From NCBI RefSeq assembly GCF_003002055.1, contig NZ_PVZF01000001.1:496001-560000 (forward strand): a DNA stretch of 64,000 bases, in the 5' to 3' direction. The translations under genes and the position numbers were made by a program. Origin of the DNA: Kineococcus rhizosphaerae (GTDB taxonomy: Bacteria; Actinomycetota; Actinomycetes; Actinomycetales; Kineococcaceae). Below the pieces are notes generated by a model, which worked only from the letters and a program-made list of their open reading frames with translations, ran no database searches and was not told the origin of the DNA. Shown here piece after piece: positions 28,785 through 64,000 of the stretch. The first letter of the stretch is position 1. Each line of letters starts with the position of its first letter.

Positions 28785-28831
28785 TCGCACGTGCGGGACA
28801 GCGTGCCACAAGGTCGGGTTAGGGTCGCGCC

Positions 28832-29818: not shown

Positions 29819-29821
29819 GGG

Positions 29822-30703: not shown

Positions 30704-30721
30704 GCGTGTCCTCCTCGGGGT

Positions 30722-48095: not shown

Positions 48096-48527
48096 TCAGA
48101 GCCCGAGCCCGCCCCGGGTCTTGGGCGCGGCGTCCCAGTGCTCGGCCAGGCGACCGTCCTCCACGCGCCACAGGTCGAACCAGTAGCTGCGGTACGTTCC
48201 GCCCGGGTTGTCCGGGTCGGGCAGGTCGCGGCTGATCATCTGCACGACGAAGTCACCCTCCGCGACCATCACCGGGGGTTCGGGCGACGGCCGCATGGCC
48301 GCCCTCGCCGCGGCGCCCGCCTCGGACTTGGCGAACGCGATGATCGCGTCGGCTCCGGAGGGGATGTCCGGGTTGTGCTGGACGTACTCCGGGGTCACGT
48401 AGTCACGGGCCTGATCGGCCCGGTCGGGGTCGAGGAGCAGTTCCATCAGTTTCAGCACCGTGGCCTTGTTGGCCTCGAGCCTGTCGGCCTCGGGGTCGTT
48501 CCCCGCTCGTTCGTCCTGCACCACCAC
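48096..48527 (-). CDS. SnoaL-like (NTF2-fold) protein, second copy in the cluster
   Basis: A 143-residue NTF2-fold protein: NKATVLKLMELLLDPDRADQAR, a YVTPEYVQHNPDIPSGADAI block and DFVVQMISRDLPDPDNPGGTYRSYWFDLWRVEDGRLAEHWDA. This pattern (QHNP..., W.FDLWRVEDGRLAEHWD) is typical of SnoaL-like aldol-condensation/ester-cyclase proteins of unknown exact role. The GTG start is the first of three consecutive GTG codons and has GGAGGAG 6 nt upstream. Operator site D is about 80 bases upstream, so it is its own transcription unit under the TetR motif. It is not closely related to the NTF2 protein at 44447. Confidence 0.8.
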   Translation of the reverse strand: MVVQDERAGNDPEADRLEANKATVLKLMELLLDPDRADQARDYVTPEYVQHNPDIPSGADAIIAFAKSEAGAAARAAMRPSPEPPVMVAEGDFVVQMISRDLPDPDNPGGTYRSYWFDLWRVEDGRLAEHWDAAPKTRGGLGL

Positions 48528-48890: not shown

Positions 48891-50534
48891 GTGACCGTGG
48901 GCAACCCGTCGGACCCCCAGGTCCTGATCGTCGGCGCCGGCCCCGTCGGCATGACGGCGGCGGTCCTGCTCGCCGCCCAGGACATCCCCGTCCTGCTGGT
49001 CGAGAAGAACCTCACGACCGCGGACGAACCGAAGGCCATCAGCCTCGACGACGAGTCGTTGCGGGTCTACCAGCGCGCCGGCGTCGCCGACCGGGTGCTC
49101 TCGGTCATCGTGCCGGGCACCGGAACCACCTACTACGGTGCCGACGGGACGAAGTTGTTCCACGGAGGCGCGAGCGTCCCGTTCCGCGTGGGCTTCCCGT
49201 TCAAGAACCCCTTCGCCCAGCCCGACCTGGAACGGGTCCTGAGGGCCGTCCTGGAGCACCACCCCCTGGTCGACCTGCGCTTCGGCACCCGCATGCTCGA
49301 GCTCTCGCAGGACCGCGACGGCGTGAGGGCCCGGCTGCGCGGCCCGCACGGGGACGAGCACGTCGCCGCCGGCTACGTGCTGGGGGCCGACGGCGGCCGG
49401 TCGCACACACGGTCCCAGCTGGGCATCACCATGCAGGGCCGCAGCCACGACGACGTGTGGCTGGTCGTCGACTGCACCGGGGACCACCACCGCGAGCGGT
49501 ACGGGATGCACCACGGCGACCCCCGGCGACCGCACGTCATCGTCCCCGGGCTGGACGGGCGGTGCCGGTACGAGTTCCGGCTCCTCCCCGGCGAGGGCGG
49601 CCCGACGGACTCCCCGTCCTTCGAGCTCATCGAGCGGCTCCTGCGGCCCCACCGCCCGATCACCCCGGACCAGGTGGAACGGGCCGTCGCGTACCGGTTC
49701 CACGGCCTGAACGCCACCACCTGGCAGAACGGCCGGGGTTTCCTGCTCGGCGACGCCGCGCACATGATGCCCCCGTTCGCCGGCCAGGGCCTGAACTCCG
49801 GCATCCGCGACGCGGCGAACCTCACCTGGAAGCTCGCCGCGGTCCTGCGCGGTGAGGCGGACCCCGCGCTGCTCGACACGTACACGCCCGAGCGGCGCCC
49901 GCACGCCGACGCGGTCATCCGCAGTTCCGAACGGCTGGGCCGGGTGGTGATGACCACCCATCCCCGCGTGGCGGCCCACCGCGACGCCGTCGTCCGTCGT
50001 GCCCTCGACACCGAACAGGGACGGCGGTTCTTCGAGGGGATGGGCTACCGGCCGAGCACGCGCATCACCCAGGGCCTGGTGGGCGACCCGGCCGGCCACC
50101 CGCTCACCGGGTGCACGCTGGGACGCCCCACCGTCTTCGACTTCCGCCGGCACCTGCTGGTGCCGCTGGACGACCTGAGCCCGGACCGCTGGACGCTCGT
50201 GGGCTCCGGCATCGGGCACGACCCCGGCGGCAGGGCGTGGCGCACCGCACTGGCCGCCGTCGAGGACCTGCGCGTGCAGGCGGTCGACGTCCCGCTGGAC
50301 GACGACGTCCACCCGCGCCCGGACGAGGTCGCCATCGCCCTGGACGTCGACGGGCGCCTGCAGGACGAGTTCGGCCCGGCCCGGGGCCGGTTCGTGCTCG
50401 TCCGTCCCGACCGGGTCGTGGCCCTGGTCGCCGAACCGACGGACTTCGCCGCCGCGGTCAACGCCGTGGTGGCCCCCTTCGCGCGGGGGCACCTCGCTCC
50501 CGCCCGGTCGACGCCGAACCCGGCCGACCGCTGA
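48891..50534 (+). CDS. FAD-dependent aromatic-ring monooxygenase (MhpA/PheA-like)
   Basis: A 547-residue class A flavoprotein hydroxylase: dinucleotide motif VGAGPVGMTAA (about residues 14-24), GADGGRSHTRSQL (the DG motif for NAD(P)H and FAD) and FAD-ribityl motif LGDAAHMMPPFAGQGLNSG. The C-terminal thioredoxin-like domain (about 400-545) is present, as in phenol and 3-hydroxyphenylpropionate hydroxylases. It would add an ortho hydroxyl to a phenolic acid, giving a catechol. It is the first gene of a plus-strand operon, followed by the extradiol dioxygenase after 19 bases, which supplies the expected next reaction. GTG start. Confidence 0.92.
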   Translation: MTVGNPSDPQVLIVGAGPVGMTAAVLLAAQDIPVLLVEKNLTTADEPKAISLDDESLRVYQRAGVADRVLSVIVPGTGTTYYGADGTKLFHGGASVPFRVGFPFKNPFAQPDLERVLRAVLEHHPLVDLRFGTRMLELSQDRDGVRARLRGPHGDEHVAAGYVLGADGGRSHTRSQLGITMQGRSHDDVWLVVDCTGDHHRERYGMHHGDPRRPHVIVPGLDGRCRYEFRLLPGEGGPTDSPSFELIERLLRPHRPITPDQVERAVAYRFHGLNATTWQNGRGFLLGDAAHMMPPFAGQGLNSGIRDAANLTWKLAAVLRGEADPALLDTYTPERRPHADAVIRSSERLGRVVMTTHPRVAAHRDAVVRRALDTEQGRRFFEGMGYRPSTRITQGLVGDPAGHPLTGCTLGRPTVFDFRRHLLVPLDDLSPDRWTLVGSGIGHDPGGRAWRTALAAVEDLRVQAVDVPLDDDVHPRPDEVAIALDVDGRLQDEFGPARGRFVLVRPDRVVALVAEPTDFAAAVNAVVAPFARGHLAPARSTPNPADR

Positions 50535-50553: not shown

Positions 50554-51486
50554 GTGGAACGACCGCTTCGCGTGACCCTGGCCGAGGGTGCCGCGGCCGG
50601 TGCCCTGCACCGGACCGCCGTGTCGCACATCGGCTTCTCCGTCCCCGACCTGACCGCGGCGGTGGACTTCTACACGCGCGTCCTGGGGATGGCCCGCCAC
50701 CGCGACGGCGCGGGGGGTGACGTGCGCCTCGGCTGGGGCGCCGGCCACCACGTCCTGTCGCTGCGCGAAGGACCGCAGACCCTGACCCACTACGGTTTCG
50801 AGGTCCGTGACGAGGACGGGCTGGACGGCATCCGCGAGCGCCTGGGCGAAGCCGGAGTCGACCACCACGACCTCGACGCGGATTGGGTCGACGAGGCCGT
50901 CGGCCGGCCGGACGGGATCTCGGTCACCGACCCCGACGGGAACACCGTCCACTTCCACTCCCCCGTCCGCCGGCACGGCGAGAACGCCGCCGACCCCGGC
51001 CGGCGGCCCATCAAGTTCCAGCACACCACCGTCGGGACCGCCGACCTGGCCCGGCTGGTCGGGTTCTTCGTCGACGTCGTCGGGTTCCGCATCTCCGACC
51101 AGCTGGCCGACGGCAGGTTCGCCTGGCTGCGCAGCGACAAGGACCACCACACCCTGGCGGTCGTCGAGACCGGCCGCGGCGGGGACATCGACCACTACAG
51201 CTACGACCTGTCCGAGTGGGAGGACTTCAAGTCCTGGTGCGACCGGCTGACCGAGCTGGACGTCCCGGTGACCTGGGGACCGGGACGGCACGGGCCGGGC
51301 AACAACCTGTTCGTCTTCTTCGACGACCCCGCCGGCAACCACATCGAGCTGTCGGCGGAGATGGAGAAGTTCTACGACGACCGCGTCCAGTACGTCCCCC
51401 GGCGCTGGACCCCGGCGCCGCAGACGGTCAACCTCTGGGGCGGGCAGACCCCGACCTGGCGCCGCACGAGCGAGAGCAGCATCTGA
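50554..51486 (+). CDS. Extradiol (meta-cleavage) catechol dioxygenase, VOC fold
   Basis: A 310-residue two-domain type I extradiol dioxygenase. The Fe(II) ligands can be placed at His157 (FQHTTVG), His214 (IDHYSYD) and Glu265 (NHIELSA), with spacing close to BphC (146/210/260). The N-terminal VOC domain (about 22-140) lacks the metal set, as usual. It opens a catechol ring next to the hydroxyls. It starts 19 bases after the hydroxylase and its stop overlaps the hydrolase ATG, consistent with a hydroxylate-cleave-hydrolyse sequence. Confidence 0.93.
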   Translation: MERPLRVTLAEGAAAGALHRTAVSHIGFSVPDLTAAVDFYTRVLGMARHRDGAGGDVRLGWGAGHHVLSLREGPQTLTHYGFEVRDEDGLDGIRERLGEAGVDHHDLDADWVDEAVGRPDGISVTDPDGNTVHFHSPVRRHGENAADPGRRPIKFQHTTVGTADLARLVGFFVDVVGFRISDQLADGRFAWLRSDKDHHTLAVVETGRGGDIDHYSYDLSEWEDFKSWCDRLTELDVPVTWGPGRHGPGNNLFVFFDDPAGNHIELSAEMEKFYDDRVQYVPRRWTPAPQTVNLWGGQTPTWRRTSESSI

Positions 51487-52310
51487 TGGCCTGGGTCAGC
51501 TACCGCCGGGACGGTCAGGACGGCGTCGGCGTGCTGGACGGTGACCACGTCGTCCCGCTGCGCGGGCTGAGGCGCATCGACGCGACGACGGACGTCGAGG
51601 CCCTGCTCGCCGCCGAGCCCGACCCCGCGAGCAGGACCGCCGTGGCGGAGGTGGAGCTGCTGCCGGCCTCACCGGCGCCCTCGAAGGTGTTCTGCGTCGG
51701 CCTGAACTACGACGAGCACGTCAACGAGACCGGCCGGGAGCTGCCGACGTACCCGGTGCTGTTCCCCAAGTACGCCTCCAGCCTCATCGCGGCCGACCGG
51801 GACATCCCCGTCCCCCCCGAGTCGCACCAGGTCGACTACGAGGCCGAGCTCGCCGTGGTCGTCGGCCGGCCCGGCCGGCGCATCGCGAAGGCCGACGCCC
51901 TGGACCACGTCCTGGGCTACTCGGTGGCCAACGACGTCACGATGCGCGACTACCAGTACAAGACCCACCAGTGGCTGCAGGGCAAGGCGTGGGACGGGTG
52001 CACGCCGCTGGGGCCCTGGCTGGTGCGTCCCGACGAGGTGGACCTGCGCCGCGCCGGCATCCGCACCGTCGTGGACGGCGTGACGGTGCAGGAGTCGGAC
52101 CTGTCCAAGCTGATCTTCGACGTCCCCACCCTCATCAGCGTCGTCTCCGAGTTCACGGCGCTGAACACCGGTGACGTCATCCTGACCGGTACTCCGGGTG
52201 GGGTGGGGTACCGGCGGGACCCGCAGCTCTTCCTGCACCCTGGGACGAAGGTCAGCGTCGAGGTCGACGGCGTGGGGCGGATCGACAGCCTCGTCGTCGC
52301 CGAGCGCTGA
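51486..52310 (+). CDS. Fumarylacetoacetate hydrolase-family protein
   Basis: A 274-residue FAH-fold protein: KVFCVGLNYDEHVNETGRE, PQ-type FPKYASSLI, the metal-site VDYEAELAVVVGRPGR, NDVTMRDYQ, GKAWDGCTPLGPWL and LTGTPGGVGYRRDP. The family includes hydrolases and decarboxylases acting on ring-cleavage products (2-hydroxy-dienoates, acylpyruvates). Which one cannot be read from sequence. Its ATG overlaps the TGA of the dioxygenase gene. It is the third gene of the ring-opening operon. Confidence 0.9.
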   Translation: MAWVSYRRDGQDGVGVLDGDHVVPLRGLRRIDATTDVEALLAAEPDPASRTAVAEVELLPASPAPSKVFCVGLNYDEHVNETGRELPTYPVLFPKYASSLIAADRDIPVPPESHQVDYEAELAVVVGRPGRRIAKADALDHVLGYSVANDVTMRDYQYKTHQWLQGKAWDGCTPLGPWLVRPDEVDLRRAGIRTVVDGVTVQESDLSKLIFDVPTLISVVSEFTALNTGDVILTGTPGGVGYRRDPQLFLHPGTKVSVEVDGVGRIDSLVVAER

Positions 52311-52367: not shown

Positions 52368-53663
52368 GTGACGAGCACGAGGCAGGGGTGGCTCGGCGCG
52401 CTGCACCCCGCGCTGCCACCGGCGCAGAACCCGCCCGCCAGCTCACCGGCGACCGTGGCGACAGCGCGGCTGGTGCTCGGTGAGGCGGCGGTCGCGTGGG
52501 CGGTCGAGGCCGCCCGCGCGATCAACGACGAGGTGGAGGCGGCGGCCCGGCTGGACTCGCGCCTGCCGCTGACCGGGCTGGAGCCGGCAGCGTGCGAGGC
52601 CGGTCTGCTCACCGTGCTGCGGCTCGTGCGGCTGGGGCTCGACACCCCCGTGTCGGCCCCCGAGGAGGCCGTCGAGCAGGTGCGGCTGGCCGTGCGGCAG
52701 GGCACGCCCCTGGACTCGGTGGTGAGGGTGATCTGGGCCAGCCACAGCGGGGTCCAGGACCGGTTGCTGGCGGTCGTCGGCGAGCAGGTCCCACCCGGGG
52801 ACCTGATCGGAGAGGTCCGTGAGCTGACCCGGACGCTGCAGGTGTTCGCGGACCTCATGGCCCGCGAACTGTCCGCCGTCTACGAGGCCGAACGCGTCCT
52901 GTGGCACGACCGGGTGTCCCTGGCCCGGCGGCAGGTCGTCGACGAGATCACCAGCACCGGCACGGCACCTCGCGACGCCGAGACCGTCCTGGGCCTGGCC
53001 CTGACGGACCACCACCTCGCCGGCCGGTTGTGGCTGGTGGACGCGATGCCGCACGAGCAGGCCCCCGGGTCCTTCCGCAGCTACGCCGCGCGGTTGTCCG
53101 CGGCGGCGGGAGCTCGCAGCACCACGCTGCTCGACGACGTCGACGGCTCGACCACGGTGCTGTGGTCCTTCGCCCGGCGACCCGCGCCGGACCTGGCGCG
53201 GGTGCTGCGCGCGGTGGACCGCCCGCAGCGCACCGCACTGGCGCTGGGCCCCCTCGGGTGCGGGGCCGGTGGACTGCAGCGCAGCCTCCTGGGCGCCGAG
53301 CAGGCGCGCGCCGTCGCCGCCCGCCGGCGCACGCCCGACGTCTGCGCCTACGAGGACAGCGCGATGCTCGCCCTGCTGCTGCACGACGAGCCGGCGGCCC
53401 GGCGCTTCGCCCTCAGCGTCCTGGACGGCCTGACCGGGCGCGACGCCAAGTCCGCCGCCGTGCGGCGCACCCTGGCCGCCTACCTGGCCCACTCCCGCAG
53501 CCGGACGGCCGCCGCGCAGGAGTTGTCGCTGGCGGCGAACACCGTCGCCTACCGGGTCCGGCAGGCCGAGGAGGCGCTGGGGCGCACGGCGGGCGAGCGG
53601 TCCCTGGACACGCTCGTCGCGCTGCGCCTGGTGGTGGAGGTTCCCGACCTGCTGCCCGGGTGA
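52368..53663 (+). CDS. PucR/CdaR-type transcriptional regulator
   Basis: A 431-residue regulator. The C-terminal helix-turn-helix (HTH_30) is TLAAYLAHSRSRTAAAQELSLAANTVAYRVRQAEEALGR at about residues 365-405, as in PucR, CdaR and related activators; the 38-residue block is given by position only in part here. The N-terminal part (about 20-180) is helical and resembles the RsbT-like sensor of the group, and the middle is GGDEF-like. The ligand is unknown. It starts 57 bases after the hydrolase stop, with an apparent own GTG start, and precedes the FAD oxidase. It may activate the flanking operons. Confidence 0.87.
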   Translation: MTSTRQGWLGALHPALPPAQNPPASSPATVATARLVLGEAAVAWAVEAARAINDEVEAAARLDSRLPLTGLEPAACEAGLLTVLRLVRLGLDTPVSAPEEAVEQVRLAVRQGTPLDSVVRVIWASHSGVQDRLLAVVGEQVPPGDLIGEVRELTRTLQVFADLMARELSAVYEAERVLWHDRVSLARRQVVDEITSTGTAPRDAETVLGLALTDHHLAGRLWLVDAMPHEQAPGSFRSYAARLSAAAGARSTTLLDDVDGSTTVLWSFARRPAPDLARVLRAVDRPQRTALALGPLGCGAGGLQRSLLGAEQARAVAARRRTPDVCAYEDSAMLALLLHDEPAARRFALSVLDGLTGRDAKSAAVRRTLAAYLAHSRSRTAAAQELSLAANTVAYRVRQAEEALGRTAGERSLDTLVALRLVVEVPDLLPG

Positions 53664-53876: not shown

Positions 53877-55295
53877 GTGATCGGGACACCCCCCGCACCC
53901 CCGGACGGCCGGACCACCCCGGACGTGGCGGGGGCCGTCATCACCCCGGGCCACCCCGAGTACGACGCGGCGCGCACCGTCTGGAACGCCGCGGTCGACC
54001 GTCGCCCCAGCCACGTCGTGCGCTGCGCCGACACCGAGGACGTGCGCCGCACCCTCGCCTGGGCCCGCGGGAGCGGGCTCGAGGTCACCGTCCGCGGCGG
54101 CGGGCACAGCATCCCCGGTCACAGCGTGATCGACGACGGCGTCGTCCTGGACCTCGGCGACCTCGACGGCGTGTTCGTCGACCCCGTCGCCCGGACCGCC
54201 CGGGTCGGCGGCGGCTGCCTGCTCGCCGACGTCGACCGCGCCACCCAGGTCCACGGCCTGATGACCCCCGCCGGCGCGATCTCGCACACCGGTGTCGGGG
54301 GGCTCACCCTCGGGGGTGGGCTGGGCTGGACGATGCGCAGGTTCGGCCTGACCGTCGACAACCTGCTCAGCGTCGAGGTGGTGACCGCCGACGGACGGGT
54401 GCTGCGGGCCGACGAGTCGAACCACCCGGAGTTGTTCTGGGCCGTCCGCGGCGGCGGGGGGAACTTCGGGGTGGTGACCGAGTTCGAGTTCGCGTTGCAC
54501 GAGCTGGGCCCTCTTCACCTCGCCGCCAACGCCTTCCGCATCGAGGACGCCCCCACGGTGCTGCGCGCCATGCGCGACGTCATGCCCACCGCCCCCGACG
54601 AACTCGTCTGGTCGGCGTTCTTCCGGTTCCTGCCCGACTGGCCGTGGGCACCGGCCGAGCACGTCGGCCGGCCCGTGCTGCTCGCACCGCTGGCGTGGGT
54701 GGGCGGCGTCGAGGAGGGGCGCCGTCGCGTCAACGAGTTCATGGCGGACCTGGCCCGCCGTGGCGCCGAACCGCTGGCCACCGGTCACGGCCCGATCGAG
54801 TACGTGACCCTGCAACGCCTGAACGACGAGCTCAACGGGCACGGCCACCGCAACTACCACAAGTCCGCGTTCCTGCGGGACCTGGACGACGCGACCATCG
54901 AGGTCCTGTGCGCCCGCGGGGCGGTCATCGCCTAGGCGAACTCCCAGTTGGAGGTGCTGTCCATGGGCGGGGCCATCAGCCGGGTGGGTCCTGAGGCCAC
55001 CGCCTTCCCCCACCGCCAGGAGTCGTGGCCGGTCAACGTGTGCGGCATCTGGCGTCCCGACGAGGACGACGCCCGCAACCTCGCCTGGGTGAAGGAGACC
55101 TTCGCGGCCCTCGCCCCCCACCTGAGTCCGGGTTCGTACCACAACTTCGGCGGGAGCGACGCCGACGACGCGGAGACCCGCGACAGCTTCGGCCCCACCT
55201 GGGACCGCCTGCGGGCGGTGAAGTCGCAGTACGACCCCGACAACGTGTTCCGGCACTGTGCCAACGTGCCGCCCCTGACGCAGGAAGGACGCTGA
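53877..55295 (+). pseudogene. Berberine-bridge-type FAD-linked oxidase interrupted by an in-frame UAG
   Basis: Reading from GTG at 53877 (GAGGAGG upstream) gives 352 residues to a TAG at 54933-54935, and the same frame then continues for 120 codons (ANSQLEVLSMGGAISRVG ... DNVFRHCANV) to a TGA at 55293. Both halves belong to one BBE/GOOX-type protein of about 472 residues: FAD-binding PCMH domain with RGGGHSIPGHS (covalent His), GGGLGWTMRRFG and GGGGNFGVVTEFEF, then the C-terminal substrate and berberine-bridge domain. Such enzymes oxidise alcohols or C-C/C-N bonds with O2. The interruption may be a mutation, a sequencing error or true readthrough; no frame change is needed. Without the second half the protein would lack its BBE domain. 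Confidence 0.75.
54933..54935 (+). other. In-frame TAG in the BBE-type oxidase gene
   Basis: The codon follows ...CARGAVIA and precedes ANSQLEV. One base change (for example GAG, CAG or TGG to TAG) would remove the stop. No other inactivating mutation was seen on either side. Confidence 0.7.
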
Positions 55296-55300
55296 TCGAC

Positions 55301-56176
55301 GTGCAGGAGCTCGAAGGCCGCACCGCACTGGTCACGGGTGGTGACAGCGGGATCGGTCTGGGGACCGCCCGGGCACTGGTGCAGGCGGGGATGCGTGTCG
55401 TCGTCTGCGGCGTCGTGGAGGAGAGCCTGCAGGCGGCGCACGCCGAGCTGTCCCGGCTCGGCACCGCCGAGGCGGTCCAGCTCGACGTGCGCGACCGGGA
55501 CGGCTTCGCCCGGCTGGCCGACCGGCTCGACCAGCAGCACGGTGGCGTCGACGTCCTGGTCAACAACGCCGGGGTGGGTTTCCTGTCCCCCACGGCCGAG
55601 GTGTCCTTCGATCAGTGGGACTGGGTGCTGGGCATCAACCTGACGGGGGTCTTCAACGGCATCCGGACGTTCCTGCCTCGGATGCTGGCCGTCGGTCGTC
55701 CCGCCCACATCGTCGCCACCGCCTCGATCGGGGGACTGCTCGGCGCGCCCGGATCGGCATACGCCGCAACGAAGTTCGGAGTCGTCGGCCTCATGGAGGC
55801 GCTGGCCGTCGAGGTGCAGGGCACCGACGTCGGCGTCTCCGTCCTGGCCCCGGGAATCGTCGCCACGAACATCCACCAGGGACTCCGGCCGCCGGGCGAG
55901 GTGGCCGAGCACACCCCCGGAGGGGCATCGTCCGGCGACCTGCACGTGGCGGCCATGCAGCCCGACGAGGTCGGGATCCGGGTGCGGCAGGCGATCCTGG
56001 ACGAGCAGTTCTACGTGCTGACCCACGCCGAGCACCGTGAGCTGCTGCAACGACGTTTCGACGCCCTGCTCGCCGCCGTACCGAGCGGAACCCCCGATGT
56101 CCGCCGGGCCGAGGTCGAACGCCTCGTCCTGCGCAACCCGGTCTACGACCGCGTCCTCGCCCGGAGGACCTCGTGA
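55301..56176 (+). CDS. Short-chain dehydrogenase/reductase (first of a pair)
   Basis: A 291-residue SDR: TGGDSGIGLG at about residues 13-22, NNAGVG at 89-94, catalytic Ser in ATASIGG and YAATK with the active-site Tyr/Lys. A C-terminal extension of about 45 residues goes beyond the core and contains AEHRELLQRRFDALLAA. SDRs of this class act on aromatic alcohols, diols or hydroxyketones. GTG at 55301 follows the oxidase stop by 5 bases; the ribosome site is weak (GGAAGG about 13 nt upstream). It overlaps the next SDR by 4 bases. Substrate is inferred to be the two-ring alcohol/ketone handled by benzaldehyde lyase. Confidence 0.88.
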   Translation: MQELEGRTALVTGGDSGIGLGTARALVQAGMRVVVCGVVEESLQAAHAELSRLGTAEAVQLDVRDRDGFARLADRLDQQHGGVDVLVNNAGVGFLSPTAEVSFDQWDWVLGINLTGVFNGIRTFLPRMLAVGRPAHIVATASIGGLLGAPGSAYAATKFGVVGLMEALAVEVQGTDVGVSVLAPGIVATNIHQGLRPPGEVAEHTPGGASSGDLHVAAMQPDEVGIRVRQAILDEQFYVLTHAEHRELLQRRFDALLAAVPSGTPDVRRAEVERLVLRNPVYDRVLARRTS

Positions 56177-56955
56177 CCGCCCCGACGACGGGCGCGGAGC
56201 CCAGCGGACTGGAGGGCCTGGTCGTCCTGGTCACCGGTGCGGGATCGGGCATCGGGCGCGCCGCGGCCGAGCTGTTCGCCCGGCGCGGGGCGCACGTCGT
56301 CGCCGCCGACCGCGACACCAGCGGGATCGACACCGTCGACGCCGTGCGGGAGGCGGGCGGGCGGGCCACCTTCGTCCGGGCCGACGTCTCGCGGGAGGCG
56401 GACGTCGAGCGGCTCGTCGCCAAGGCGGTCCAGACGTACGGGACGCTCGACGTGGCGTTCAACAACGCGGGGATCGCCCCTCCGGTCACCGCGACCGAGC
56501 GCCTCGAGCTCAAGGACTGGGGCCGCGCTCTCACCGTCAACCTGCGCGGGGTGTGGTTGTGCATGAAGCACGAGCTCGCGGTCATGGTCCCCCGCGGGCG
56601 CGGCTCGATCGTCAACACGTCCTCGGTCGCCGGTCTGGTGGGCAACCCCGGATCGGCTGCCTACTCCGCCGCCAAGCACGGCGTCGTGGGCTTGACGCGG
56701 TCGGCGGCCGCCGAGCACGGCCGCCACGGCGTGCGCGTCAACGCGGTCGCCCCGGGCCTGACCCGGACGGGGATGCTGCGCCACCTGATCGAGCGGGAGC
56801 ACCTCGACGTCGACTCCGTGGCCGCGGGCACTCCCCTGGGCCGCGTGGGCGAACCGCACGAGATCGCCGAGGCCGTCGTCTGGCTGGCCTCACCGCGCGC
56901 CGGTTTCGTCACCGGCCACGTCCTCAGCGTCGACGGCGGGGAGACGTGCACCTGA
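56173..56955 (+). CDS. Short-chain dehydrogenase/reductase (second of a pair)
   Basis: A 260-residue classical SDR: TGAGSGIGRA at residues 21-30, NNAGIA near 98-103, catalytic Ser in NTSSVAG, YSAAK with the Tyr/Lys pair, and a C-terminal DGGETCT. The acidic residue in AADRD after strand 2 suggests NAD(H). It is translationally coupled to the SDR before it (GTGA) and to benzaldehyde lyase after it (its TGA overlaps the ATG). Oxidation of a hydrobenzoin-like diol to the hydroxyketone cleaved by the lyase would fit; that is inference. Confidence 0.9.
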   Translation: MTAPTTGAEPSGLEGLVVLVTGAGSGIGRAAAELFARRGAHVVAADRDTSGIDTVDAVREAGGRATFVRADVSREADVERLVAKAVQTYGTLDVAFNNAGIAPPVTATERLELKDWGRALTVNLRGVWLCMKHELAVMVPRGRGSIVNTSSVAGLVGNPGSAAYSAAKHGVVGLTRSAAAEHGRHGVRVNAVAPGLTRTGMLRHLIEREHLDVDSVAAGTPLGRVGEPHEIAEAVVWLASPRAGFVTGHVLSVDGGETCT

Positions 56956-58736
56956 TGACCCCGGCGACGACAGGAAGCGAGGAACCCACCGTGCGCACCA
57001 CCACGCCCGTCACCGGGGGACGCAGCGTCGTCCAGATCCTCGAGGCCGCGGGGGTCGAGGTGGCGTTCGGCATCAACGGTGCCCACATCGACAGCGTCTA
57101 CCAGGCCGCCCTCGACGAGGGCCTGCCCATCGTGGACACGCGCCACGAGATGAACGCCGGCCACGCCGCCGAGGGCTACGCCCGTGTGCGCAACGCGCTG
57201 GGGGTGGCCCTGCTGACGGCCGGCGGGGGTTTCACCAACGCCGTGACGTCGATGGCCAACGCCCACCTGGACCGCACCCCCGTGCTGTACCTGGCCGCGT
57301 CCGGGCCGCTCGCCGAGGACCAGACGAACACGTTGCAGGCCGGGTTGGACCAGGTCGCCATCGCGACGCCCGTGACGAAGTGGGCCCACCGCGTCACCCG
57401 TCCCGACCTGATCCCCCGGCTGCTGACCCGGGCCATCCGCACGGCGCTGGCCGCCCCCCGCGGCCCGGTGCTGCTCGACATCCCCTGGGACGTCCTCACC
57501 GGCGAGGTCACGGTCCCGAGTCTCGACTGGGCCTCGACGGCCCGTGCGGCCGACGACGGCCCGGCCGCCTCGACCGTTGCGGTGGAACGGATCCTGGATC
57601 TGCTCGACGGTGCCCGGCGGCCGGTCCTGCTGGCCGGTTCGGAGGTTCCCAGGTCCCAGGCGGGGCCGGCCCTGCGGGAGTTCGCGCAGCGCACGGGCGT
57701 CCCGCTGTTCTCCGACTACGAGGGTCTGGGCGCGTTGACCGGCAGCCCGCAACGCGTCGGTCTGGTCCAGACGCTGCACGGGTTGCCCGAGGACTCGCGC
57801 CCGGACCTGGTGCTCGTGCTGGGGCTGCGGTTCGGACTCACGACGGCCCACGGCAGCGGGACCCTCGTCCCGCACGACGCCACCGTCGTCCACGTCGACG
57901 CCGACGCGGCCCAGCACGGGCTGCTGCAACCCGTGGCGCTGGGCATCGCCGCCGAACCACGCCCGGTGCTGGAGGCCCTGAACCAGGTGCACTCGACCAG
58001 GTGGGGCGGTGCGCGTCACGACCGCGCCGCCTGGCTGCGGACCCTGACCGAGCACGCTGGAGACCGCGCCCGCGCCGTGGCCGGGCAGGTGCTCCAGGAC
58101 CGTGACCGTGCGCCGGCCCCGGGACGCGCGGACGGGTCCGCCGCGACCGCTGCCGACGGCCTGCACCCGTTCGACGCGGTCCGGGTGATCGCCGAGCAGG
58201 TCCCCCCCGGCTCGGTGGTCGTCGCCGACGGCGCCCTGACCTACCTGTGGCTGTCCGAGACCATCGCGCACGCCGACGTCTCGGCGTTCCTGTGCCACGG
58301 GTACCTGGGGTCGATGGGCGTCGGGATGGGTGTCGCCCTGGGCGCGCAGACCGCCGCTCGCGACACCCCGGTGGTGCTGGTGACCGGCGACGGCTCGGTC
58401 GGCTACAGCCTGGCCGAGTTCGACGCCATGGTCCGCGCGGAACTGCCCGTCGTGGTCGTCGTGCTGAACAACCGCGCCTGGGGGGCGACGCTGCACGCGC
58501 AGGAGATCGCCCTGGGGCCGGACCGGGTGGTGAACAACCGCCTGGAGAACGGTTCCTACGCCGGCGTCGCCGAGGCCCTGGGTGCGGTCGGCTACCGGGT
58601 CGACACCGTGGAGGACCTGGCGCCGGCGCTGCAGGAGGCCCTCACCGGAGGCCGCACGGCCTGCGTGGAGGTCCGTGTCCAGCTCTCCCCCGTCCCCCCC
58701 GAGGAACGCGTCCTCATGGGCGGGGACCCGTTCTGA
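56955..58736 (+). CDS. bal: Benzaldehyde lyase (thiamine-diphosphate acyloin lyase)
   Basis: A 593-residue ThDP enzyme that follows Pseudomonas fluorescens benzaldehyde lyase closely along its whole length. FGINGAHIDSVYQ puts Ala43 and His44 where BAL has Ala28 and His29, and Glu65 (DTRHE) where BAL has Glu50, a constant offset of 15 residues. LTAGGGFTNAVT, TNTLQAGLDQVA, KWAHRV, VTGDGSVGYS...NN (ThDP/Mg site), WGATLH and LENGSYAGVA also match. BAL splits benzoin-type hydroxyketones into two aromatic aldehydes and also runs in reverse. The first 15 residues may be an extension; GTG near codon 13 is an alternative start. The two SDRs before it and the ALDHs in the cluster give a logical pathway. 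Confidence 0.93.
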   Translation: MTPATTGSEEPTVRTTTPVTGGRSVVQILEAAGVEVAFGINGAHIDSVYQAALDEGLPIVDTRHEMNAGHAAEGYARVRNALGVALLTAGGGFTNAVTSMANAHLDRTPVLYLAASGPLAEDQTNTLQAGLDQVAIATPVTKWAHRVTRPDLIPRLLTRAIRTALAAPRGPVLLDIPWDVLTGEVTVPSLDWASTARAADDGPAASTVAVERILDLLDGARRPVLLAGSEVPRSQAGPALREFAQRTGVPLFSDYEGLGALTGSPQRVGLVQTLHGLPEDSRPDLVLVLGLRFGLTTAHGSGTLVPHDATVVHVDADAAQHGLLQPVALGIAAEPRPVLEALNQVHSTRWGGARHDRAAWLRTLTEHAGDRARAVAGQVLQDRDRAPAPGRADGSAATAADGLHPFDAVRVIAEQVPPGSVVVADGALTYLWLSETIAHADVSAFLCHGYLGSMGVGMGVALGAQTAARDTPVVLVTGDGSVGYSLAEFDAMVRAELPVVVVVLNNRAWGATLHAQEIALGPDRVVNNRLENGSYAGVAEALGAVGYRVDTVEDLAPALQEALTGGRTACVEVRVQLSPVPPEERVLMGGDPF

Positions 58737-58754
58737 GCCCGAAGGAGGCGTCCA

Positions 58755-59255
58755 GTGCTGTTCGACTTCGGGCAACCGACCGACGGTGTCATCCAGCTCG
58801 GCTTCGTCGTCGAGGACCTCGAGGCGGCCATGCTCACCTTCGGGAACCGTCTCGGCGTGGGACCGTGGACCGTCCTGCGCGACTTCGCCGGCGACGACCC
58901 CCGGTACCGGGGTGAGCCGACGCTCGCCCGGGCCGACGTCGCCCTCGGTTTCGGCGGCCACCTGCAGTACGAACTCATCCAGCCCACCGACCAGCGGCCC
59001 TCGGTCCACCGCGACGTCGTCCTCGACCGGGGCTTCGGGTTCCACCACTTCGGCCGGGCCACCACGGACTTCGACGCCGCGGTGGAGCAGATGCACCGCG
59101 ACGGCTACCCCACCGTCTTCAGCGCCTCCGTGGGGCCCGGTTCCCGCGTCGCGTACTTCGACACCCGCGACGTCCTGCCGGGGATGACCGAACTGCTCGA
59201 GGCGGGCCCCGGGCTCGAAGCCGACTTCACCCGGATGTACCGCACCTCGCTCTGA
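58755..59255 (+). CDS. VOC (glyoxalase-fold) protein
   Basis: A 166-residue VOC protein: VIQLGFVVEDLEAAMLTFGNRLGVGPW at the start, ELIQP and HHFGRATTDFDAAVEQM in the middle, and TRDVLPGMTELLE at the end. It resembles methylmalonyl-CoA-epimerase-like/Glyoxalase_4 members: His at the FHHFGRA position and Glu in TELLE could bind a metal, but the usual first ligand is replaced by Gln (IQLG). Reaction unknown. GTG start with GGAGG 6 nt upstream, 18 bases after benzaldehyde lyase. It could process a lyase product or isomerise a hydroxyketone. Confidence 0.8.
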   Translation: MLFDFGQPTDGVIQLGFVVEDLEAAMLTFGNRLGVGPWTVLRDFAGDDPRYRGEPTLARADVALGFGGHLQYELIQPTDQRPSVHRDVVLDRGFGFHHFGRATTDFDAAVEQMHRDGYPTVFSASVGPGSRVAYFDTRDVLPGMTELLEAGPGLEADFTRMYRTSL

Positions 59256-59310
59256 ACCCCGGTCCCACCCGGAACCGGTCCGCCATCCTCCGACGACGCA
59301 GGAGACCACC

Positions 59311-60579
59311 ATGAGCACACCCTTCACGCGCGTGCGCTACGAACACCGGCTGGTCGCGATCTTCTTCCTGGCCTGGGGGTTGATCTTCCTCGACCGCCAG
59401 GCCCTGTCGATCCTCATGCCCTTGATGATCAAGGACATCGACCTCACCAACGGCGAGATCGGGCAGATCAACATGTGGCAGACGATCTGCTACGCGCTGG
59501 CCGCGCCGACCTTCGCCCTCCTGGCCGACCGCCTCGGCAACCGCAAGCGCATCCTGCTGATCGCGGTCTTCGCCACCTCGCTGCTGTCGGCGGCCACGAC
59601 GGCGGCGCACTCCCTCTCGTACCTCATCGTGGTCCGGTCGCTGCTGGGGATCGGCGAGGGCGTCATCCTGCCGCTGGCGGTGGCCCTCGTCGCCCTGGAG
59701 TCCCGCCCCGGTCGCCTGGGCCGCAACGTCGGCCTCGTCTACGCCGGGGCTGCGGTCATCGCCTCCACCATCGGTCCCGTCGTCGTCACGCAGGTCGCGT
59801 CCGCGACGACCTGGCGCACGGCCTTCCTGTTCATCAGCGTGCCGAGCTTCCTGGCCGGTGTGCTCGTGTGGGCCTTCGTGCGCGAACCGCAGGCGCCGGT
59901 CCCCGCGACCGGCACCGCGTCCGGCACCGCGCCCGGTCTGAGCACCCGCGAGGCCGTGCGGGCGGCCTTCGGCAACCGCAACGTCCTGGTGTGCGTGGTC
60001 ATCAGCGTGTTCGCGATGGCGGGCCTGTGGACGTTCAACTCCTACATCACCCTGTACCTCACCCAGGTCAGCCACCTGACGGTCACCACCGCGGGGTTCG
60101 TCATGTCCGCCTTCGGCATCTTCACGATCGGCTGGCAGGTCTTCCTGCCGTACTCCTCCGACCGGATCGGACGACGCCCGGCCATGGTGCTGTACGGCGC
60201 GCTGGCGGCCGTGAGCCCCGCACTGCTGTTCCTGTTCCCCCGCAGCGCGGCGACCCTGGTGGTCTACGTGGTGGTCGGGGGCGTGTTCCTCACCCTCACG
60301 GCGCTGTTCACCAGCATCATCCCGGTCGAGAGCGTCCCGGCGGGCGTCATGGCCACCGCGTCCGCGCTCATCATGGGCATCGGGGAACTCCTGGGGGCGT
60401 TCGTCGTCGGGGGCGCCGGGACGCTGGCCGACAGCCGGGGGCTGGGCGCGGTGATGGCGGCCGCGGCCATCGCCTACGTCCTCGTGGCGATCACCTCGCT
60501 GGCCCTGCGCGAGACCCGGCGGCGCGTCGTGGACGCACCGCTGTCGGCGCCCAGCGCGGTCCACCACCCCGTCCTGTGA
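59311..60579 (+). CDS. MFS transporter (aromatic acid:H+ symporter / ACS type)
   Basis: A 422-residue protein with 12 membrane helices. It has the family's ADRLGNRKR loop between helices 2 and 3 (MFS signature) and the FLDRQALSILMPLM first helix typical of anion:cation and aromatic-acid symporters. It probably imports an aromatic acid or exports a product. The ATG is preceded by GCAGGAG. Its stop overlaps the IclR GTG (GTGA), and it follows the VOC gene by 55 bases, so it is part of the lyase operon or the next unit. Confidence 0.9.
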   Translation: MSTPFTRVRYEHRLVAIFFLAWGLIFLDRQALSILMPLMIKDIDLTNGEIGQINMWQTICYALAAPTFALLADRLGNRKRILLIAVFATSLLSAATTAAHSLSYLIVVRSLLGIGEGVILPLAVALVALESRPGRLGRNVGLVYAGAAVIASTIGPVVVTQVASATTWRTAFLFISVPSFLAGVLVWAFVREPQAPVPATGTASGTAPGLSTREAVRAAFGNRNVLVCVVISVFAMAGLWTFNSYITLYLTQVSHLTVTTAGFVMSAFGIFTIGWQVFLPYSSDRIGRRPAMVLYGALAAVSPALLFLFPRSAATLVVYVVVGGVFLTLTALFTSIIPVESVPAGVMATASALIMGIGELLGAFVVGGAGTLADSRGLGAVMAAAAIAYVLVAITSLALRETRRRVVDAPLSAPSAVHHPVL

Positions 60580-61451
60580 CGCGCACGTCGGACGAGGACG
60601 TGCCGGCGGGCGAGCGGCCCCCGGCCGATCCACCGACCGGTACGGTGTCGCACGTGGCAGGATCCGCTGAGCAGCGCGTGTCGGGGTACCGGGAACGCAA
60701 CAGCACGGCGGAGCGCGCGCTGGAGATCCTCGGCCTGTTCGACGAGGACCACCCGGTCATCTCCGCGGCCCGGGTGGCCGAGCAGCTGGGGACGTCACGT
60801 TCCACCGCGTACCGCTACGTGCAGAGCCTGGTCTCCAGCCAGTTCCTGGAGGAGGCGCCCGGCGGTGGTTTCCGCCTGGGGCTGCGCGTGCTGGAGCTGG
60901 CCCGGGTGGCCCGCAAGGCCTACGGGCTCTCCGAGCTCGCGCTGCCGGTGATGCAGGACCTGGCCGCCGCCACGCACGAGTCGGTGCTGCTGACCCGCCG
61001 TGTCGGTGACCTCGTCATCTGCCTGGAGCGGGCCGAATCGGTGAGCCACACCGTCCGCATCTCCTACGAGCGCGGGAGCGCCCTGCCGCTGAACGCCGGC
61101 GCCTCGGCCCTGGTGCTGCTGGCGTGGGCCGATCACCAGGAGGTGCGCTCCCTGCTGCAGCACACGACGTTGCGCGCCTTCACCGACACGACCCTGACCG
61201 ACGTCGACGCCCTCACCGACCGGTTGGCGCACATCCGCCGCGACGGTTTCTCCGTCACCCGGGGGGAGGTCGACCACGACGTGCTCGGTGTCGCCGCCCC
61301 GATCCGGGACGACACCGGGACGGTGGTGGCGGCCCTCAGCGTCGCGGCGCTCGCCTCCCGGGTCCCGGCCGCCCGTGAGGCGGACGTGGTGGAAGCGGTC
61401 GTGACGTCCGCCGGCGCCATCAGCGCCCGACTCTCGGCTATCACCGGCTGA
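60576..61451 (+). CDS. IclR-family transcriptional regulator
   Basis: A 291-residue IclR protein. The winged helix-turn-helix (about residues 45-105) contains ALEILGLFDEDHPVISAARVAEQLGTSRSTAYRYVQSL, here longer than quoted elsewhere, and the effector domain (about 120-285) has VRRGDLVICLER-type and GSALPLNAGASALVLLAW motifs. IclR proteins of aromatic clusters (PcaR, PobR-like) respond to ring compounds. The GTG overlaps the MFS stop; GTG codons at 60645 and 60654 are alternative starts that would give a more usual length of about 265. It may act on the dyad at 48825 or on the promoter of the ALDH gene. Confidence 0.88.
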   Translation: MTRTSDEDVPAGERPPADPPTGTVSHVAGSAEQRVSGYRERNSTAERALEILGLFDEDHPVISAARVAEQLGTSRSTAYRYVQSLVSSQFLEEAPGGGFRLGLRVLELARVARKAYGLSELALPVMQDLAAATHESVLLTRRVGDLVICLERAESVSHTVRISYERGSALPLNAGASALVLLAWADHQEVRSLLQHTTLRAFTDTTLTDVDALTDRLAHIRRDGFSVTRGEVDHDVLGVAAPIRDDTGTVVAALSVAALASRVPAAREADVVEAVVTSAGAISARLSAITG

Positions 61452-61636
61452 GCCGCGCCCGGCACGGCGGCTCCACCCCTCCTGCGCGACCACCTCGACC
61501 TCGACCCCGACGATGTCGCGGGACGGCAGAGGCCGTGGACGTCCTTGTCGCCGGAGGCCAAGCGCTGCGGCGCGCCACCGGCTTCACTGCTGGGAACGCG
61601 AGGGGACGGCGTCGTCCCCGCCGGAGGAGGACGACA

Positions 61637-63184
61637 GTGACGAGCACCGTGACCAGCCCCGCGGTCGACACCGCGATCGACACCGCGATCGACACCGCGA
61701 TCGACACCGTGGACGCACCCGACGAGGACGTGCGCGCGGACGACGACTGGAGCGTGTGGGAGGACACCCGCCACTCCGCGGCCACCGGCCCGGAACGGCT
61801 CGAGGTGACGGCCCCGGCCACCGGCCGCGTCCTGGCCAGGATCGCCGCCGCCGACGTGGCGGACCTGGACGCGGCGGTCGCGGCGGCCCGCACCGCTCAG
61901 CGCTCGTGGGCACGGCGCACCTACGACCAGCGCGCGGCGGTCCTGCGCCGTGCCGCGCAGCTGCTGGAGGAGCAACCGGAGCGCGTGGTGCGCTGGCTGG
62001 TCCCCGAGTCCGGTTCGGGTCAGGGCAAGGCCGCGTTCGAGGTCTCGATGCTGGTCGGGGAGCTCAACGAGTGCGCCGCCCTGGCCTCGGCGCCGTACGG
62101 GGAACTGCTGCGGTCCACCAGGCCCCGGTTGTCGCTGGCCCGGCGCGTCCCCCTCGGGGTCGTCGGGGTGATCTCGCCGTTCAACTTCCCCGCGATCCTG
62201 TCCCTGCGCTCGGTGGCCCCGGCCCTGGCCGTCGGCAACGCCGTCGTCCTCAAGCCCGACCCCCGCACACCGGTCTCCGGGGGCCTGGCCCTGGCCGAGC
62301 TGCTGGCCGACGCCGGGCTGCCCGAAGGGCTTCTGCACGTCCTGCCCGGCGGTGCCGAGGTCGGGCAGGCGCTCGTCGCCCACCCCGACGTGCCGTGCAT
62401 CTCCTTCACCGGGTCCACCGCGGCCGGCCGCGCGATCGCGGCCGCGGCCGCCCCGCTGCTGAAGAAGGTCCACCTCGAACTCGGCGGCAACAACGCCCTG
62501 CTCGTCCTGCCGGACGCCGACGTCCAGGCCGCCGCGTCCGCGGCCGCCTGGGGTTCCTTCCTGCACCAGGGGCAGATCTGCATGACCGCCGGACGGCACG
62601 TCGTGCACGCCTCCATCGCCGAGGAGTTCACCGCCGCCCTGGCCGAGAAGGCGCGGAACCTGCCCGTCGGGGACCCGGCCGACCCGGCCAACGCGCTGGG
62701 GCCGATCATCGACGACCGGCAGCTGGCGCGGGTGCACGACATCGTGACCGCCGCCGTGGCCCACGGCGCGACCCTGGTCGCGGGCGGGGAGTTCGGCGGG
62801 CTCTTCTACCGGCCGACGGTCCTGGCCGGGGTGAGCGCCGACAACCCGGCGTTCCGCCAGGAGATCTTCGGCCCCGTCGCCCCCGTCACGACCTACGAGA
62901 CCCTCGACGAAGCCGTCGCGCTGATCAACGACAGCGAGTACGGGCTCAGCGTCGGCATCCTCACCGGGGACGCCTTCGCCGCCTTCGAGCTCGCCGCCCG
63001 CATCGAGTCGGGCATGGTCCACATCAACGACCAGACCGTGGACGACGAGGCGACGATTCCCTTCGGCGGGACGAAGGCCTCGGGATCGGGGGGGCACTTC
63101 GGCGGAACACGGGCGAACCTGGAGTCCTTCTGCGAGACCCAGTGGGTCACCGTCCAGTCGCAGATCGAGCGCTACCCGTTCTGA
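61637..63184 (+). CDS. Aromatic aldehyde dehydrogenase (second copy, benzaldehyde-type)
   Basis: A 515-residue ALDH. NAD-site GVVGVISPFNFPAILSLRSV, GNAVVLKPDPRTPV and FTGSTAAGRAIA, catalytic Glu in LELGGNN and Cys in HQGQICMTAGRHVV are all present. It belongs to the same benzaldehyde/vanillin group as the gene at 42822, with which it shares the HQGQICM and EEIFGPVAPV-type blocks, but the two are clearly distinct. Residues 11-25 are a repeated DTAI unit encoded by a 12-base tandem repeat. GTG with GGAGGAGG 7-8 nt upstream. It would oxidise the aldehydes made by benzaldehyde lyase and the carotenoid-oxygenase-type enzyme. Confidence 0.92.
   Translation: MTSTVTSPAVDTAIDTAIDTAIDTVDAPDEDVRADDDWSVWEDTRHSAATGPERLEVTAPATGRVLARIAAADVADLDAAVAAARTAQRSWARRTYDQRAAVLRRAAQLLEEQPERVVRWLVPESGSGQGKAAFEVSMLVGELNECAALASAPYGELLRSTRPRLSLARRVPLGVVGVISPFNFPAILSLRSVAPALAVGNAVVLKPDPRTPVSGGLALAELLADAGLPEGLLHVLPGGAEVGQALVAHPDVPCISFTGSTAAGRAIAAAAAPLLKKVHLELGGNNALLVLPDADVQAAASAAAWGSFLHQGQICMTAGRHVVHASIAEEFTAALAEKARNLPVGDPADPANALGPIIDDRQLARVHDIVTAAVAHGATLVAGGEFGGLFYRPTVLAGVSADNPAFRQEIFGPVAPVTTYETLDEAVALINDSEYGLSVGILTGDAFAAFELAARIESGMVHINDQTVDDEATIPFGGTKASGSGGHFGGTRANLESFCETQWVTVQSQIERYPF
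61667..61702 (+). repeat. Three perfect copies of a 12-base tandem repeat
   Basis: GACACCGCGATC at 61667, 61679 and 61691, then a degenerate copy (GACACCGTGGAC). It lies in frame near the 5' end of the ALDH gene and encodes DTAI repeats. Confidence 0.85.
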
Positions 63185-63213
63185 GGCGCGAGCACGCAGC
63201 CCCCGCCCGGCCC

Positions 63214-63239
63214 CTGCGGGCAGCGGCCCCGGCCCGCAG
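63214..63239 (+). terminator. Hairpin between the ALDH and carotenoid-oxygenase genes
   Basis: 8-bp perfect arms CTGCGGGC (63214-63221) and complement (63232-63239), 10-base loop. It could terminate or attenuate transcription into the oxygenase gene. Confidence 0.5.
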
Positions 63240-63277
63240 CACCACCCCGATCCCCGACCGGCAGCACAGGAGTTCCG

Positions 63278-64000
63278 ATGACCGATCTTCCCCCCGTCCC
63301 GACCACCCTGCTGCCGCGCGGGCGGACCCCGCGGGAGTCGTCGCCCACCCCGGACTGGCTGACGGACAACAAGTTCCTGAACGGACCGTTCGCTCCCTGG
63401 TCCGAGGAGCAGGAGGCGTACGACCTGGAGGTGGTCGGTCAGCTCCCCGCCGACCTGGCCGGTGCGCTGTTCCGCACCTCCTCCAACCCGCGCTTCGAAC
63501 CCCGCAACACCGACCGGTACCACTGGTGGGAGGGCGACGGCATGGTCGCGGCCGTCTACGTCCGCGACGGGAAGGCGGCGTTCCGCACCCGCTGGGTGAA
63601 CACCGACTCGATGAAGGTCGAGGTGGAGCAGGGCGAGGCCGTCTACAGCGGTTTCGTCAACGGCGGCACGGCGGGACGCCTGCCGGCTGGGGCGCCCCCG
63701 GCCAAGAACGTGGCGAACACCAACGTGGGGATCTTCGACGACCACCTCATCGTGTACTACGAGGGTGGCCTCCCCCACGCGATGCACCCGGAGACGTTGC
63801 AGACGCAGGGCCAGTACGACTTCCACGGGGGGGTCGACGTCCTGTGCACCGCGCACTTCAAGATCGACCCCGCCACGGGCGACATGCTGTTCTTCGCCGC
63901 CACCGGTCCTGTCGTCACCTGGTACCGGGCCGACGTGCGCACGGGCAAGGTGATCGACTCGCACGTCCTGGAGATCGGCGTGCCGGTCCTCATGCACGAC
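63278..64000 (+). CDS. Carotenoid-cleavage-type oxygenase (lignostilbene dioxygenase-like), 3' end outside window
   Basis: The first 241 codons of a carotenoid cleavage oxygenase-family protein. RTSSNPRFEP...DRYHWWEGDGMVAAVYV and FRTRWVNT are the family's N-terminal signature, KNVANTNV follows, and His193 in CTAHFKIDP is the first of the four iron-binding His residues. Bacterial members either split carotenoids or cleave the central double bond of stilbenes (lignostilbene dioxygenase, giving two benzaldehydes). The cluster with benzaldehyde lyase and aromatic ALDHs favours a stilbene substrate. ATG has AGGAG 6 nt upstream. The remaining His ligands and the end are outside the window. Confidence 0.88.
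   Translation, partial: MTDLPPVPTTLLPRGRTPRESSPTPDWLTDNKFLNGPFAPWSEEQEAYDLEVVGQLPADLAGALFRTSSNPRFEPRNTDRYHWWEGDGMVAAVYVRDGKAAFRTRWVNTDSMKVEVEQGEAVYSGFVNGGTAGRLPAGAPPAKNVANTNVGIFDDHLIVYYEGGLPHAMHPETLQTQGQYDFHGGVDVLCTAHFKIDPATGDMLFFAATGPVVTWYRADVRTGKVIDSHVLEIGVPVLMHD

Follow-up and report, generated by a model that had tools for sequence, protein, structure and literature searches.

The 64,000-nucleotide stretch of Kineococcus rhizosphaerae DNA analysed here (the window; contig NZ_PVZF01000001.1, positions 496,001 to 560,000) carries an aromatic-catabolic gene cluster around a gene for a thiamine diphosphate (ThDP)-dependent benzaldehyde lyase (BAL). The source genome comprises 5.61 Mb in 63 contigs, with a completeness of 99.99% and a contamination of 1.82%. 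Genes were identified by open reading frame (ORF) calling combined with Pfam and NCBIfam scans (Table 1). BAL is accompanied by two short-chain dehydrogenases/reductases (SDR1 and SDR2), a VOC protein, an aldehyde dehydrogenase (ALDH) and a carotenoid-cleavage-type oxygenase (CCO). The SDR1 and SDR2 genes overlap by 4 bases and SDR2 and BAL by 1 base, and the main genes, from 48891 to 64801, are all on the plus strand. The cluster spans 48.1-64.0 kb of the window plus about 14.5 kb past its edge, and it begins at about 48.1 kb and probably ends at about 78.5 kb in window numbering. A first-pass annotation had delimited it as 53877-64000. The genes listed there are present, including the coupled SDRs and the transporter, IclR regulator and ALDH beside BAL, but the boundaries were too narrow and the VOC gene at 58755-59255 was overlooked. 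We think it fairly probable that the cluster serves to degrade an aromatic compound of plant type, with two routes by which a carbon-carbon bond bearing an aryl group would be cleaved to aryl aldehydes.

Table 1. Genes of the BAL cluster within the window.
Feature	Coordinates	Strand	Basis or remark
SnoaL-like small protein	48096..48527	-	Pfam SnoaL_2 2e-8; divergent from FAD hydroxylase
FAD-dependent aromatic hydroxylase (MhpA-like)	48891..50534	+	Pfam FAD_binding_3; NCBIfam 3-HPP hydroxylase models below cut-off
Two-domain extradiol-type ring-cleavage dioxygenase (HpaD/catechol 2,3-dioxygenase-like)	50554..51486	+	Pfam Glyoxalase; HpaD 7e-31, below cut-off
Fumarylacetoacetate-hydrolase (FAH)-family hydrolase	51486..52310	+	Pfam FAA_hydrolase 2e-65
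PucR-type regulator	52368..53663	+	ORF; named by eye
BBE-type FAD oxidase gene, broken	53877..55295	+	in-frame TAG 54933-54935
SDR1, C-alpha-dehydrogenase-like (LigD/LigL/LigO type)	55301..56176	+	PDB comparison
SDR2, classical SDR	56173..56955	+	Pfam adh_short_C2
BAL, ThDP-dependent	56955..58736	+	three ThDP-enzyme domains, full-length similarity
VOC protein, methylmalonyl-CoA-epimerase-like predicted fold	58755..59255	+	Pfam Glyoxalase_4
MFS transporter	59311..60579	+	Pfam MFS_1
IclR regulator, start uncertain	~60576..61451	+	Pfam IclR_C, HTH_IclR on 60660-61451
ALDH, start uncertain	61535..63184	+	NCBIfam ALDH models, below cut-off
CCO	63278..64000 in window (241/507 aa), ends 64801 outside	+	RPE65 3e-113

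By comparison with PDB entries, BAL matched 8y8m (1e-213), 8y7s (2e-212) and Pseudomonas fluorescens BAL, 2ag0 (8e-182), the similarity to the latter extending over the full length. The best-matching ThDP enzyme other than formolase and entries for BAL itself appeared only at 4e-52. Nine positions of 2ag0, which we take to be active-site residues, are kept (A28, H29, E50, Q113, W163, Y397, H415, M421 and A480). A43, H44, E65 and Q128 of the window protein, by hand count on the alignment, correspond to A28, H29, E50 and Q113, so that the Ala/His/Glu active site claimed earlier is indeed there. The window enzyme differs from P. fluorescens BAL in two pocket substitutions (H26 to N and F484 to A) and in the coupling of its gene to those for SDRs, VOC, ALDH and CCO. 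The Pseudomonas strain that carries BAL reportedly grows on anisoin and benzoin. In open-licence PMC, the papers listed for PDB entries 8y7s, 8y7r and 8y8m were unrelated by title.

The first PDB match of SDR1 was a plain SDR, 3ioy (5e-53), followed by the C-alpha-dehydrogenases 4y98 (2e-51), 4ya6 (6e-47) and 4yae (3e-43). SDR1 is similar along its chain to C-alpha-dehydrogenases of the LigD/LigL/LigO type, with a slightly better score for the plain SDR. Members of the C-alpha-dehydrogenase family oxidise lignin dimers, as described in the main text of PMC12997858. The gene for a BBE-type oxidase upstream of SDR1 contains an in-frame TAG, the same frame being otherwise open to 55295. Because this stop separates an FAD_binding_4 domain from the BBE domain, the gene is probably a pseudogene, or else the stop is a sequence error. 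The oxidase, earlier counted as a member of the pathway, was therefore dropped as a working step. No BBE relative was found by tblastn in the closest Streptomyces loci (clade A, below), and one other BAL locus contains one (L043).

The CCO matches carotenoid 9,10-dioxygenase (6e-52) and the lignostilbene dioxygenase LsdA (1e-49) almost equally well. Its His 193, 240, 306 and 487 align with the LsdA histidines that are the four iron ligands of the family. According to part of PMC8191317, the lignostilbene dioxygenase LSD4 binds the guaiacyl ring with its 4-OH through Phe59, Tyr101 and Lys134. This triad is absent from the window CCO, which has Trp84, Phe126 and Tyr161 instead, in a sequence-only alignment to LsdA onto which the LSD4 numbering was carried assuming an offset of one. 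The same positions are W, F and Y/F in 9/9 orthologues examined, including one fragment. Orthologues are 72-79% identical, and on the NCBIfam LSD model the window CCO scored 244 bits against a cut-off of 800. The missing triad rules out a canonical lignostilbene dioxygenase. Because of this absence and the low model score, a non-phenolic or a different alkene is the likelier substrate. Of the stilbene-oxygenase-like gene noted earlier, the family and the iron ligands stand, whereas stilbene cleavage of the lignostilbene type is not supported. In one related locus without BAL (L048), a second CCO about 8 kb from the first keeps the Tyr and the Lys, with the Phe59 column not alignable. It scored 490 bits on the same model, below the cut-off, and is closer to lignostilbene dioxygenases than the window CCO. 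In an Actinoplanes genome, three CCO relatives (77%, 48% and 47%) share a stretch of about 60 kb on a single contig (L046, G417:C2).

A two-row BAL alignment was used to scan 84,980 species genomes. The scan relied on the peptide patterns HEMNAGH and TAGGGFTN, so that BALs with neither were missed, and records near our own genome were possibly omitted. It returned 34 BAL loci, of which 25 are actinobacterial, 24 from Streptomyces and 1 from Actinoplanes, and the other 9 proteobacterial; genes in these loci were called by ORF/GC3 heuristics. A BAL tree of 32 rows comprised the window and 31 others, with three partial sequences omitted (L041, which stops inside BAL at a contig end, and L044 and L045, in which BAL matches are partial or in pieces). 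The window groups with four Streptomyces rows (clade A; support 100/99), apart from a second actinobacterial group of 18 rows (clade B) and from 9 proteobacterial rows. Each of the five clade A loci (L012, L013, L014, L041 and L042) has ALDH-CCO-SDR1-SDR2-BAL together with an FAD hydroxylase. Four of the five show FAH and IclR, L042 beginning within the cluster, and four show VOC, L041 ending in BAL. The window holds these parts in a different order. Identities between the window and clade A were 46-47% for FAH, 52-55% for the FAD hydroxylase, 57-59% for ALDH and 64-65% for IclR, and 66-77% for CCO, SDR1, SDR2, BAL and VOC (SDR1 68-70%, SDR2 73-77%). Neither the MFS transporter nor the PucR-type regulator had a relative in the clade A loci (tblastn, 1e-15), and by eye clade A has a Liv-type ABC set. 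Since the content recurs in five Streptomyces loci in another order, the association of these genes is functional, not chance; content is kept among actinobacteria, but gene order is not.

The rarity of the parts points in the same direction. Among 394 sampled genomes of the class, our own included, BAL was found in 2 (E<=1e-120), CCO in 2 (1e-100) and SDR1 in 1 (1e-60); 3-8 candidates per genome were scored, so that these absences are not absolute. A VOC profile matched 59 of the 394 genomes at 1e-15, and only G208 (4e-96) and our own (1e-78) fell below 1e-50, the next following at 4e-38. These are the same two genomes that have BAL. As the profile contains the VOC sequence of L020, and G208 is apparently the genome of that locus, what is informative is that the other 392 genomes have no match at E<=1e-50. 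This conserved content and these rare parts uphold the notion that BAL is the centre of a dedicated cluster for aromatic catabolism, to which an oxygenase, SDRs and ALDH are linked.

The CCO loci of genomes G417, G418, G419 and G191 were taken to ask whether CCO implies BAL, and the answer was negative. In these four loci the CCO, ALDH, FAD hydroxylase and a 164-aa extradiol-type protein occur without BAL. Three of them (L047, L048 and L061) also have FAH and IclR, and L046 starts inside its FAD hydroxylase. Because the CCO-ALDH-FAD hydroxylase module occurs without BAL, SDR1-SDR2-BAL-VOC has the appearance of a detachable addition to the same pathway. Two further CCO matches are fragments: L049, where none of the other cluster genes matched, and the sixth match, in G422. 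The FAD hydroxylase of the window has relatives of 44-55% identity in clade A and the BAL-less CCO clusters, the IclR regulator at about 60576-61451 has relatives of 64-65% identity in the CCO clusters, the SnoaL-like protein at 48096-48527 has a 66% identical relative in L048 (tblastn), and Streptomyces clusters have the different 164-aa extradiol-type protein in place of the two-domain dioxygenase.

Neighbours were counted in the 34 BAL loci by tblastn at 1e-10. Within 8.5 kb of BAL we found the FAD hydroxylase in 30, SDR in 29, IclR in 26, ALDH in 24, VOC in 20 and a Rieske-type protein in 15 loci, followed by FAH (6), CCO (5), MFS (4), epoxide hydrolase (3), two-domain extradiol dioxygenase (1) and BBE (1). 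Within 3 kb the counts were 23 for SDR, 22 for IclR, 21 for FAD, 20 for VOC and 5 for ALDH. The loci are not independent: clade B Streptomyces are near-copies, L026, L036 and L045 come from one strain, and L032 and L034 from one metagenome-assembled genome; distances in L031 were measured from a span merging BAL with a second ThDP enzyme. BAL had been described as rarely seen in a pathway context. It is rare, but most of its loci have aromatic-type catabolic neighbours. Clade B (L015-L029, L036, L039, L040 and L044) is a second actinobacterial type of BAL neighbourhood, with an FAD hydroxylase (salicylate-hydroxylase-like by eye) and IclR, and in many loci an iron alcohol dehydrogenase, a gallate-decarboxylase-like SnoaL_4 protein, ALDH and a Rieske-type oxygenase. 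A role of this SnoaL_4 protein as LdpA was considered and found unsupported, its closest solved relatives being gallate decarboxylase and pea pathogenicity protein 2. In the gammaproteobacterial BAL locus L031, the second ThDP enzyme (L031:15576-17288) is 28% identical to BAL and has ALDH, FAH and a GMC-type oxidoreductase (by eye) nearby.

From these gene identities and linkages we infer the following reactions and their order. In one route, CCO would oxidatively split an aryl alkene. In the other, SDR1 and SDR2 would oxidise a vicinal diol (or a benzylic alcohol) to an aryl alpha-hydroxyketone, VOC would interconvert stereo- or keto isomers of the hydroxyketone, and BAL would cleave it into two aldehydes. 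ALDH would turn the aldehydes into acids, and the FAD hydroxylase, the extradiol dioxygenase and the FAH hydrolase may open the ring by meta-cleavage. IclR presumably regulates the cluster, and import would be by MFS (by ABC in the Streptomyces loci). In outline, the pathway idea of the first-pass annotation is plausible.

In three proteobacterial loci (Agrobacterium vitis, Sphingobium and Alteraurantiacibacter), an epoxide hydrolase of the alpha/beta hydrolase type lies 0.9-7.6 kb from BAL, together with SDRs. Two were identified by PDB comparison (2cjp, 6e-62; 8hm5, 6e-67) and the third by 66% identity. The combination of epoxide hydrolase, SDR and BAL fits a sequence from epoxide to diol, acyloin and aldehydes.

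Several observations weigh against the proposed two-route pathway in the window. A search at 1e-8 for relatives of these epoxide hydrolases gave none in the window or in the flank analysed, and CCO could here act on the alkene directly, without an epoxide hydrolase. BAL-type enzymes also form acyloins in vitro, and the cleavage direction is an assumption of ours. The CCO lacks the ring-binding triad and scores slightly better with a carotenoid dioxygenase than with LsdA. BAL occurred in 1/12 sampled genomes of the family (E<=1e-100), our own alone; with 11 other members lacking it at this threshold, the cluster is not a core trait. VOC is absent within 3 kb of BAL in 6/20 clade B and 7/9 proteobacterial loci.

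With regard to the substrate, we give about an even chance to a compound with a C6-C2-C6 skeleton (a stilbenoid, a hydrobenzoin or a beta-1 lignin dimer), from which CCO and BAL would each yield two aryl aldehydes. SDR1 and two SDRs assigned by eye 8-12 kb past the window edge resemble lignin-dimer C-alpha-dehydrogenases, and the second CCO of L048, with its Tyr and Lys, is of a more lignostilbene-dioxygenase-like kind. The published pathway for a beta-1 lignin dimer (DGPD), which the main text of PMC12997858 describes with LigD/LigL, LdpB/LdpC, LdpA and a lignostilbene dioxygenase, likewise has a LigD-like SDR, a CCO and aryl aldehyde products. The window cluster differs from it in that BAL and VOC are added, the CCO triad is absent and no LdpA counterpart is shown. 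The SnoaL-like proteins at 48096-48527 and L006:7018-7830 match no NCBIfam model at 1e-5 and so provide no link to the step of LdpA, an NTF2-type deformylase. The loss of the triad in all orthologues examined also speaks against two-ring substrates. A term search of the main text of PMC12997858 returned none of "benzaldehyde lyase", "benzoin", "thiamin" or "actino", and the searched portion of PMC12607616 returned no benzaldehyde lyase, benzoin or acyloin. The natural pathway of BAL is not set out in the open-licence PMC literature searched.

A one-ring substrate, either C6-C3 (such as anethole or methyl-isoeugenol) or a lignin-derived ketol, is a serious though lesser possibility; CCO and BAL would then yield an aryl aldehyde and acetaldehyde. 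Non-phenolic rings fit a CCO that has lost the phenol-binding Tyr/Lys pair, and the epoxide hydrolases near proteobacterial BALs accord with the epoxide-diol routes from isoeugenol and anethole to vanillin and anisaldehyde outlined in parts of PMC11591617 and PMC3774712. In those routes an aryl epoxide and diol likewise lead to an aryl aldehyde, but the same parts attribute cleavage to one oxygenase (IEM or TAO), a task that here would fall to SDR and BAL. The C-alpha-dehydrogenase-like SDRs and the second CCO of L048 favour dimers over one-ring compounds. It is improbable that CCO acts on an apocarotenoid-like or other non-aromatic alkene with the BAL module an unrelated neighbour, as the top-scoring PDB match of CCO might suggest: CCO occurs with ALDH and the FAD hydroxylase in the 10 whole-length CCO loci examined (L012-L014, L041, L042, L046-L048, L061 and the window) and immediately before SDR1-SDR2-BAL in five. 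SDR, ALDH, MFS and IclR are common families, but it is highly improbable that unrelated catabolic genes have come together by chance in a region dense with genes, since the rare BAL, CCO, VOC and SDR1 recur together in another genus and in another order.

Few genes accompany BAL at close range as constantly as that of the VOC protein. By lineage it was found within 3 kb in 4/5 clade A, 14/20 clade B and 2/9 proteobacterial loci; two of these 20 matches are fragments (L036 and L045), apparent remnants with 43/183 profile positions matched on those contigs. The L041 genome has a VOC match (1e-85) on another contig. In G410 (L028), the sole VOC match is on contig C4 and tblastn found none inside L028, an exception to a clean BAL-VOC rule. 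Residues invariant in 19 rows include Q14, H69, E73, H97, H98 and E146. The AlphaFold2 model (pLDDT 84.7) matched by Foldseek 3gm5, a putative methylmalonyl-CoA epimerase (MMCE; 1e-11), followed by the MMCEs 6bu2 (4e-8) and 6wf6 (6e-8). We take MMCE to have four metal ligands (His/Gln/His/Glu), of which Q14, E73, H97/H98 and E146 would be the candidate counterparts. VOC resembles MMCE in predicted fold and in its Glyoxalase_4 family. It differs in that sequence similarity to true MMCE is weak (best 6e-4) and in that its neighbourhood is aromatic, not one of propionate metabolism, a context that argues against a CoA-ester substrate. MMCE-type chemistry takes off a proton next to a carbonyl, and on an acyloin this would result in epimerisation or ketol isomerisation. 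By this analogy, we propose VOC as a putative acyloin epimerase or ketol isomerase.

We tentatively consider a broader scheme, which we rate as possible but less likely than not. SDR-VOC-BAL would form a portable acyloin-cleavage module, with VOC feeding a stereoselective BAL, joined to different aromatic pathways in Actinomycetota and Pseudomonadota. Here the module would stand beside a CCO alkene-splitting module, and in sphingomonads beside an epoxide hydrolase. If this is true, the role of VOC would be a new activity for the MMCE-like fold, and BAL would gain a physiological role in an aryl carbon-carbon cleavage pathway unmentioned in the main text of the lignin-dimer review PMC12997858. 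BAL is a much-used biocatalyst, for which the cluster supplies a defined gene set, a candidate partner (VOC) and candidate substrates. The two-route pathway, if confirmed, would be an actinobacterial route for breaking aryl carbon-carbon linkages of plant or lignin origin.

The flank past the window edge was analysed as L006, in which position n corresponds to window 63000+n and CCO occupies L006:278-1801. Beyond CCO it encodes a sugar-type ABC transporter (by eye), followed by a second IclR and the SnoaL-like protein at L006:7018-7830. Next are an HsaA-like flavin monooxygenase and an SDR (by eye), then a luciferase-like monooxygenase, another SDR and an HSL-type hydrolase; the last of these genes, which ends at 78497, is that of an HsaB-like flavin reductase. 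Four of the flank genes have relatives in the BAL-less locus L061 (G191) and so probably belong to the same system: the luciferase-like monooxygenase with 84% identity, the second SDR with 59%, the hydrolase with 71% and the flavin reductase with 32%. Of the remaining flank genes (ABC transporter, second IclR, SnoaL-like protein, HsaA-like protein and first downstream SDR), none had a match in L061, a stretch that ends at the luciferase-like gene. The N-terminal part of the ALDH frame (61535-61720) contains a short tandem repeat, DTAI three times, ahead of the conserved domain, which starts at about residue 77. Elsewhere in the window, the region 25640-35807 contains a selenocysteine system: a tRNA-Sec gene (28693-28782) lies close to genes recognised by eye as those of SelB, SelA, SelD and a formate dehydrogenase.

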